A stretch of DNA of 64,000 bases from Mytilinidion resinicola (taxonomy: Eukaryota > Ascomycota > Dothideomycetes > Mytilinidiales > Mytilinidiaceae): assembly GCF_010093595.1 (NCBI RefSeq), contig NW_022985461.1, positions 31,822-95,821 of the forward strand. The letters are read 5' to 3'. Both the position numbers and the translations under genes were made by a program. This document shows, one piece after another, positions 24,912 to 25,120 of the stretch. The stretch's first letter is position 1. Every line of letters starts with the position of its first letter. The notes below the pieces were generated by a model. The model was given only the letters and a program-made list of their open reading frames with translations. It searched no databases and was not told the origin of the DNA.

Positions 24912-24941
24912 GGCACTTTGGCGGAGTGGTTAACGCGCGGG

Positions 24942-24990
24942 GTATGCATCACCTCCAGGTCATCCACACTTCTCATACTAACAGTACTAG
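24942..24990 (+). other. Intron 1 of the tRNA-Ser gene (spliceosomal-type signals)
   Basis: These 49 nt start GTATGC, contain the full consensus branch site TACTAAC (24976-24982) and end TACTAG. They interrupt the anticodon stem between its fourth and fifth base pairs (tRNA positions 30/31), not the loop. Ending the intron at the earlier AG (24984) leaves six extra bases that destroy the stem. Confidence 0.8.
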
Positions 24991-25011
24991 CCTGCTAAGC
25001 CCGTTCCTTCG

Positions 25012-25061
25012 GTACGACTTCCCAAAGCTTGATGTTTGATCAGGTCACTAACAATCCTCAG
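25012..25061 (+). other. Intron 2 of the tRNA-Ser gene (spliceosomal-type signals)
   Basis: These 50 nt start GTACGA, contain CACTAAC (25046-25052) and end CCTCAG. They interrupt the variable arm immediately after its UUCG loop; joining the flanks gives a cUUCGg tetraloop closed by a 4-bp stem. Without removal the variable arm cannot close. Confidence 0.8.
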
Positions 25062-25105
25062 GGAGCCTGGGTTCGATCCCCAGAGGTGTCGTAAGATATT
25101 CCATA

Positions 25106-25120
25106 TTTTTGATCTTTTTT
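25106..25120 (+). terminator. RNA polymerase III terminator of the tRNA gene
   Basis: T runs of five (25106-25110) and six (25115-25120) lie 15-29 nt after the tRNA 3' end, as expected for Pol III termination. Confidence 0.7.

Follow-up and report, generated by a model that had tools for sequence, protein, structure and literature searches.

Putative spliceosomal introns in a tRNA-Ser(GCU) gene and other nuclear tRNA genes of Mytilinidion resinicola

In the bark-dwelling fungus Mytilinidion resinicola (Mytilinidiales, Dothideomycetes), a tRNA-Ser(GCU) gene is interrupted by two segments that have the ends and branch motifs of mRNA introns. Judging from the DNA, we consider it very probable that a functional Pol III gene has here acquired two U2-type introns, which the spliceosome would excise. 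The two introns appear to belong to a set of at least 15 spliceosomal-type introns in 12 tRNA genes of this fungus, one intron lying within the anticodon of tRNA-Leu(CAA) and some within or next to the Pol III promoter boxes, and it is likely that Pol III nuclear tRNA precursors are regular substrates of its spliceosome. The first-pass annotation had proposed that the precursor is processed by the spliceosome, or that its introns were gained by the mechanism that spreads mRNA introns. This proposal gains support from eleven more tRNA genes and a U6 gene with introns of similar length and signals, from intron-free paralogues, and from junctions that, in 13 of 15 pairs, show no enrichment of the bulge-helix-bulge (BHB) motif; the excision itself we infer from these patterns.

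The tRNA-Ser(GCU) gene of the window

The gene lies in a window of 64,000 nucleotides (the whole stretch of DNA analysed), and a whole-genome search with 300 nt around the gene revealed a single copy. Re-reading of positions 24912-25091 bore out the sequence, coordinates, GT and AG ends and branch motifs given by the first-pass annotation, including its placing of the motifs about 10 nt from the intron ends (branch A at 9 and 10 nt; Table 1). Intron 1 reads GTATGC...TACTAAC...TAG and intron 2 GTACGA...CACTAAC...CAG. Unlike canonical SEN introns, they sit off 37/38, at 30/31 and in the variable arm. The spliced 81-mer has an acceptor stem of 7/7 pairs (two of them G-U), a D stem of 3, anticodon and T stems of 5/5 each, the GCU anticodon and a long variable arm of serine type (13 nt). 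An intact B box, GGTTCGATCCC, is present in the T arm within exon 3, no T4 run occurs within the 180 nt of the gene, and the two introns lengthen the distance between A box and B box by 99 nt.

Removal of both segments had been claimed to yield an 81-nt tRNA, one arm of which cannot form if the matching segment is retained. Among the forms tested, only the spliced 81-mer was called tRNA-Ser(gct) by ARAGORN, and with introns disallowed the program found no tRNA in the full gene or with one segment removed, in agreement with both parts of this claim. When a 37/38 intron was allowed, ARAGORN offered Val, Ile and Asn calls, which we rejected because they ignore the complete serine cloverleaf. Since neither ARAGORN nor Rfam detected a tRNA in the unspliced window, tRNA finders may miss eukaryotic genes of this kind.

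The window was also scanned for T-arm-like sites on both strands, with removal of up to two GT..branch..AG segments. Any cloverleaf at all was obtained at 3 of the 19 sites, the Ser-GCU gene scoring 28.5 and the other two 23.5; the best score of the same scan in three shuffled windows was 22.0. In an exhaustive test, every removal of 25-110 nt was scored for cloverleaf fit. For intron 1 the best score was reached by two removals only, both of 49 nt and both restoring the anticodon stem, one of which is GT-AG and is the interval given in Table 1; a shuffled 49-mer matched this result, branch motif included, in 0.0009 of trials. The borders of intron 2 are loosely fixed by structure, with 237 equal-scoring removals of 15 lengths, three of them GT-AG.

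The introns had further been said to have the modal length of mRNA introns in the window, 49-50 nt. Codon-bias intron detection gave two introns and an ORF-bridging scan, whose controls were high, was used instead. Its 31 candidates include 13 of 45-54 nt, which is rough support from a noisy set (controls 16-26); the commonest donors in this noisy set (controls again 16-26) were GTAAGC and GTGAGT, followed by GTAAGT and GTGCGT. The claim is weakened by the two introns of the NDC80 gene in the window, confirmed by protein P0001, which are 61-62 nt long. This NDC80 gene has a match at 98% in Lophium mytilinum.

Table 1. Features of the window tRNA-Ser(GCU) gene and sites of ectopic introns in the twelve tRNA genes
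Feature	Position	Strand	Description
tRNA-Ser(GCU) gene	24912-25091	+	180 nt unspliced, 81 nt spliced, two introns
Exon 1	24912-24941	+	5' acceptor strand, D arm, anticodon stem 27-30
Intron 1	24942-24990	+	49 nt, GT..AG, 30/31 in 5' strand of anticodon stem
Intron 1 branch motif TACTAAC	24976-24982	+	branch A 24981, 9 nt from intron end
Exon 2	24991-25011	+	base 31, anticodon loop CTGCTAA (anticodon GCT), 3' anticodon stem, 5' part of variable arm
Intron 2	25012-25061	+	50 nt, GT..AG, loop of long variable arm
Intron 2 branch motif CACTAAC	25046-25052	+	branch A 25051, 10 nt from intron end
Exon 3	25062-25091	+	3' variable arm, T arm, 3' acceptor strand, G73
Pol III terminator-like T runs	25106-25120	+	T5 25106-25110, T6 25115-25120
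Ser-GCU	window		ectopic introns: anticodon stem and variable arm
Ile-AAU	C33		ectopic intron: anticodon stem
Asp-GUC	C5		ectopic intron: between variable loop and T stem
Asp-GUC	C14		ectopic intron: between variable loop and T stem
Arg-ACG	C16		ectopic intron: T stem
Arg-UCU	C10		ectopic intron: T stem to T loop
Arg-CCG	C4		ectopic intron: D loop
Ala-UGC	C4		ectopic intron: D stem, 10/11
Leu-CAA	C1		two ectopic introns: D loop; anticodon interior, 34/35
Ile-UAU	C15		two ectopic introns: D loop; anticodon stem
Ser-AGA	C17		ectopic intron: T stem
Ser-GCU	C24:257740		ectopic intron: T stem; 37/38 intron also present

Ectopic introns across the genome

The genome (47.1 Mb, 44 contigs) was scanned, and loci were drawn from Rfam (63 of 1387 tRNA candidates scored, 35 kept), from five pattern searches and from extra stretches, and were read by a home-made cloverleaf threader and by eye. 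Twelve of 44 classified tRNA genes carry 15 introns outside 37/38 (here called ectopic), three of them having two each, and the remaining 32 have no intron or a 37/38 intron only; since the sample is biased by low Rfam scores, the TGCTAA pattern and picks from B-box lists, 12/44 is not usable as a frequency. Introns at 37/38 are common in this genome and coexist with ectopic introns in the Asp, Ile-AAU, Leu-CAA and C24 Ser-GCU genes. In Leu-CAA, a SEN-type intron after base 37 accompanies the spliceosomal-type intron that splits the anticodon.

All 12 spliced forms were accepted as tRNAs by ARAGORN, which labelled the C33 Ile-AAU gene Asn(att); here we followed the threader, which reads Ile-AAU. 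The 11 genes fitted by the threader have acceptor stems of 7/7 and T stems of 5/5, and their anticodon stems are 5/5 save that of Ile-UAU (4/5). Arg-UCU was analysed without its first base, was accepted by ARAGORN only and gave nothing in the exhaustive removal. The threader sought GT introns only and split Ile-UAU otherwise; borders were set by hand for the introns of Ser-AGA, C24 Ser-GCU and Arg-UCU and for the second intron of Ile-UAU. Three further loci stand outside the 12 of 44: L067 and L095 gave no tRNA threading even under relaxed rules, and L108 could be threaded only by assuming a 37/38 intron of 72 nt, its stems then being imperfect. L067 (C5:1655911-1656354) combines a T arm with a piece resembling a D arm, and a branch motif and CAG lie directly 5' of TGTAGTTCAGTGG; this looks like an intron in the 5' acceptor strand, and no 5' exon was found for it.

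The same set of signals recurs in all 15 ectopic introns, which measure 49-56 nt and end in AG. Thirteen begin with GT, the donors being GTATGC, GTACGA, GTATGT (three), GTAAGC (three), GTAAGT (two), GTAAGA, GTCAGT and GTAATT, and two begin with GA (GAAAGT). Each has a branch motif (CTAAC, CTAAT, TTAAC or CTGAT) whose A precedes the end by 9-13 nt. On shuffling, each of the 13 GT-AG introns had a chance of 0.0002-0.006 of showing GT..branch..AG, with same-length registers alone counted; these are low estimates, since other lengths were uncounted and the register numbers came from the exhaustive test for 8 of the 15 introns and were set by hand for 7. Where the cloverleaf is tight, GT..AG is among the few best-scoring registers (two in window intron 1 and three in Ala, one of them GT..AG in each case), and where borders are loosely fixed it is found in 3 of 237 registers for window intron 2, 2 of 42 for Arg-CCG and 2 of 46 for the first Ile-UAU intron. 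Higher-scoring rival removals exist for six introns (Ile-AAU, both Asp, both Leu-CAA and the second of Ile-UAU), which we think is an effect of deleting the 37/38 intron as well. A T4 run occurs in 1 of the 15 introns (Arg-UCU), a rarity that says little because 12% of random segments hold one.

Neither GA intron, in the T stems of C17 Ser-AGA (L065) and C24 Ser-GCU (L068), has a GT-AG register at the best score. The two have GAAAGTG and AACTAAC in common, and their middles are identical in 19 of 36 columns, against 16 on average for shuffles. GA-AG introns are described as frequent in two animals (PMC7072748). Among the 15 introns, sequence likeness is clear for the Asp pair alone, the best other pair scoring 12 against 10 when shuffled. 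We therefore rejected the idea that the ectopic introns are introner copies, and the fact that they share little beyond the signals, the Asp pair excepted, argues against a recent burst of one element.

Paralogues with and without an insertion occur side by side in this genome. The Ile-AAU gene at C25:364045 equals the C33 gene minus its insertion, with few differences in or near the 37/38 intron, and two registers are possible for the insertion, of which one is GT..AG. Likewise, the Asp-GUC gene at C1:2262443 has no ectopic intron and the two other Asp-GUC genes carry one whose borders are fitted by GT..AG. Within that pair the exons are identical (72/72), the SEN introns agree in 11 of 19 columns and the flanks in 66 of 113 and 60 of 117 aligned columns. 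Their ectopic intron agrees in 49 of 58 columns overall and in 22 of 30 in its middle; the donor GTAAGC and CTAACGGATGTTG are unchanged, and the stretch from branch to acceptor is kept with one base inserted. Such a pattern is what selection for splicing would leave, with a contrast between signals and middle that is only moderate, since the middle is also fairly similar.

A comparable insertion was found in a U6 snRNA gene. The genome holds at least 17 U6 loci (48 of 2448 candidates scored), of which one, at C1:2369760-2369910, spans 151 bases and the others 99-103. This locus (L111, C1:2369755-2369915, minus strand) contains a 51-nt spliceosomal-type intron, GTACACAC...CTAACGTCAACTAG, directly after GATACAGAGAAG, and the intron is absent from the two U6 copies aligned with it. 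Similar introns thus occur in two kinds of Pol III gene in one genome.

Several other loci with B boxes came to light. Two U6 copies, L093 (C1:2920479-2920578) and L096 (C1:2999875-2999974), are followed downstream by B boxes of tRNA type; L093 may be a dead copy, since it has CCTGAGA in place of the ACAGAGA of L096. Two similar loci, L106 (C12:1449381) and L107 (C8:1868415), have a B box and T runs, are not readable as tRNAs and share a GTACTAACCAGCAGGA block, possibly as an unknown Pol III RNA. A multi-copy B-box family, in which AGTTCGATCCTTGGCGCCGGAC or close variants precede T runs, often about 300-650 nt apart, has sites at C20:316257-316926, at C13:944232-945498, on C31, C34 and C7, and elsewhere.

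Function, excision and alternative explanations

The Pol III signals of the window gene are its B box and the T5 and T6 runs downstream, and T runs are present no more than 20 nt past base 73 in 11 of the 12 genes, the twelfth having been read for 14 nt only. BLAST with the spliced Ser-GCU, Arg-UCU, Arg-ACG and Ser-AGA sequences found no uninterrupted close copy in the genome; besides its own gene, Arg-ACG matched an 83% partial relative on C9. Diverged intact copies could escape such a search, since BLAST missed the Ser-GCU gene on C24. That second gene answers in the negative the suggestion that the window gene might be the only Ser-GCU gene of the genome. As to an uninterrupted Ser-GCU gene elsewhere, which, combined with a lack of reads from this locus, had been named as a sign of a pseudogene or a different processing case, none is present among the matches listed, and the C24 copy has an ectopic intron of its own. 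Since both Ser-GCU genes found carry ectopic introns, neither would yield a tRNA without ectopic splicing.

These findings bear on the possibility that the insertions killed the genes and that the tRNAs are supplied by intact copies elsewhere, which we regard as unlikely. The uninterrupted Ile-AAU and Asp-GUC genes fit such an account, as do same-anticodon genes for Leu-CAA (L031) and, imperfectly, Ile-UAU (L108). The tRNA list on which the comparison draws is incomplete: it rests on the scored Rfam candidates and on B-box matches reviewed among the matches listed, up to contig C27, and the TGCTAA pattern is blind to genes in which a 37/38 intron follows TGCTA. Against this account stand the acceptor, anticodon and T stems, which in the 11 threaded genes are complete apart from a single anticodon-stem mismatch, and the donor and branch stretch, which are kept in the Asp duplicates as well as in the two Ser T-stem introns. 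The interruption of both Ser-GCU genes found, and the lack of an uninterrupted close copy of Arg-UCU, Arg-ACG and Ser-AGA by BLAST, likewise speak against it.

It is quite improbable that the insertions are ectopic introns of the archaeal or red-algal type, cut by SEN, mostly at a BHB, with GT and AG as coincidences. Introns do occur at many tRNA positions in archaea, Cyanidioschyzon and nucleomorphs, and many of those in Guillardia lack a defined BHB (PMC4090602, PMC3978253); 37/38 introns, moreover, are common in M. resinicola, and a full 4-bp BHB centre is found at Ile-AAU (9 of 79 other positions as good) and at the first Leu-CAA intron (12 of 157 as good). A BHB fold at the junctions was among the checks that the first-pass annotation had named; apart from these two exceptions there was no enrichment, since the other 13 of the 15 junction pairs were equalled or outscored at anywhere from 13 of 67 to 121 of 126 other positions. 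The window introns are among these, with counts of 121 of 126 and 59 of 125. Nor does cutting by SEN account for the donor, branch motif and AG found in all 15 introns, for their length of 49-56 nt, or for the U6 intron. A reading of the loci as spliced transcripts of Pol II, or as other RNAs with exons resembling tRNA, is very improbable indeed: spliceosome substrates usually come from Pol II, but the T runs shortly after base 73 in 11 of the 12 genes and the presence of such an intron in U6, itself a Pol III gene, point the other way.

If the introns are spliceosomal, the whole 180-nt Ser-GCU precursor would be transcribed by Pol III, and U1 and U2 would bind to it in the same manner as to short mRNA introns. 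The donors GTATGC and GTACGA, the CTAAC branch sites and the AGs would be recognised by the spliceosome, and both introns would leave as lariats in the nucleus; the 81-nt tRNA would fold only after splicing and then undergo the usual trimming (RNase P). In genes with a 37/38 intron, SEN would be predicted to act after the spliceosome, because ectopic introns block formation of the cloverleaf, and Leu-CAA, with an anticodon-splitting intron as well as a SEN-type intron after base 37, would need that order. Features that tell against this account include the GA start of the two Ser T-stem introns and the placement of several introns inside the A-box region or next to the B box, which should impair Pol III recruitment. 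The tRNA introns and the U6 intron of this genome probably share a mode of origin, which may have been reverse splicing into a nuclear RNA that was then converted back into DNA, or another route of gain.

Relation to known systems

The introns of tRNAs and of mRNAs are taught as separate worlds with separate enzymes. If the spliceosomal explanation is true, Pol III tRNA transcripts can be spliced without a Pol II context, several tRNAs require the spliceosome and then SEN, and the sequence in which nuclear splicing, folding, end trimming and cutting by SEN take place becomes testable. If no uninterrupted Ser-GCU gene exists, decoding of AGU and AGC would depend on spliceosomal splicing of a tRNA. 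In addition, the genes would document intron gain cleanly, with exons fixed by the cloverleaf, intron-free paralogues and a sister event in U6.

To our knowledge, the spliceosome is not known to cut tRNAs. The first-pass annotation knew of no described equivalent, and we likewise found no report of spliceosomal introns in nuclear tRNA genes in the open-access literature searched. Eukaryotic cases of ectopic tRNA introns described include those of nucleomorphs and Cyanidioschyzon (PMC4090602, PMC3978253), and in tRNAscan-SE 2.0 the search for non-canonical introns is described under archaea (PMC8450103). Like the introns reported here, those of archaea, Cyanidioschyzon merolae and nucleomorphs lie in the D, anticodon, variable and T arms, and position 30/31 is listed for archaea (PMC4090602). 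They are tied to SEN, mostly at a BHB, and measure 3-24 nt in Guillardia; that source does not contain the word spliceosome (PMC4090602). In contrast, the ectopic tRNA introns of M. resinicola are 49-56 nt long and carry a donor, a branch motif and AG, and 13 of the 15 show no enrichment of BHB. They differ also from the canonical eukaryotic 37/38 SEN introns of the same genome, since they sit elsewhere and carry splice signals. Introner-like elements represent spliceosomal intron gain in fungi, including Dothideomycetes (PMC4457414), whereas the tRNA introns are not copies of one sequence.

The U6 snRNA gene of fission yeast contains an mRNA-type intron (PMC10484740). It is alike in being a spliceosomal-type intron in a Pol III gene, and M. 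resinicola U6 has one too; here, by comparison, the host is a tRNA and not an RNA of the splicing active site, the insertion sites are scattered, and two introns occur together in three of the 12 tRNA genes. Among other structural RNAs, the introns of fungal rRNA genes are alike in being spliceosomal in an RNA that does not come from Pol II, and differ in that the host is Pol I rRNA. Spliceosomal introns are known in fungal nuclear rRNA genes, and a 1993 study, going by its title, reportedly describes an mRNA intron in fungal 18S rDNA. Spliceosomal introns are thus known in U6 and in fungal rRNA genes; what would be new is tRNA as the host class of RNA.
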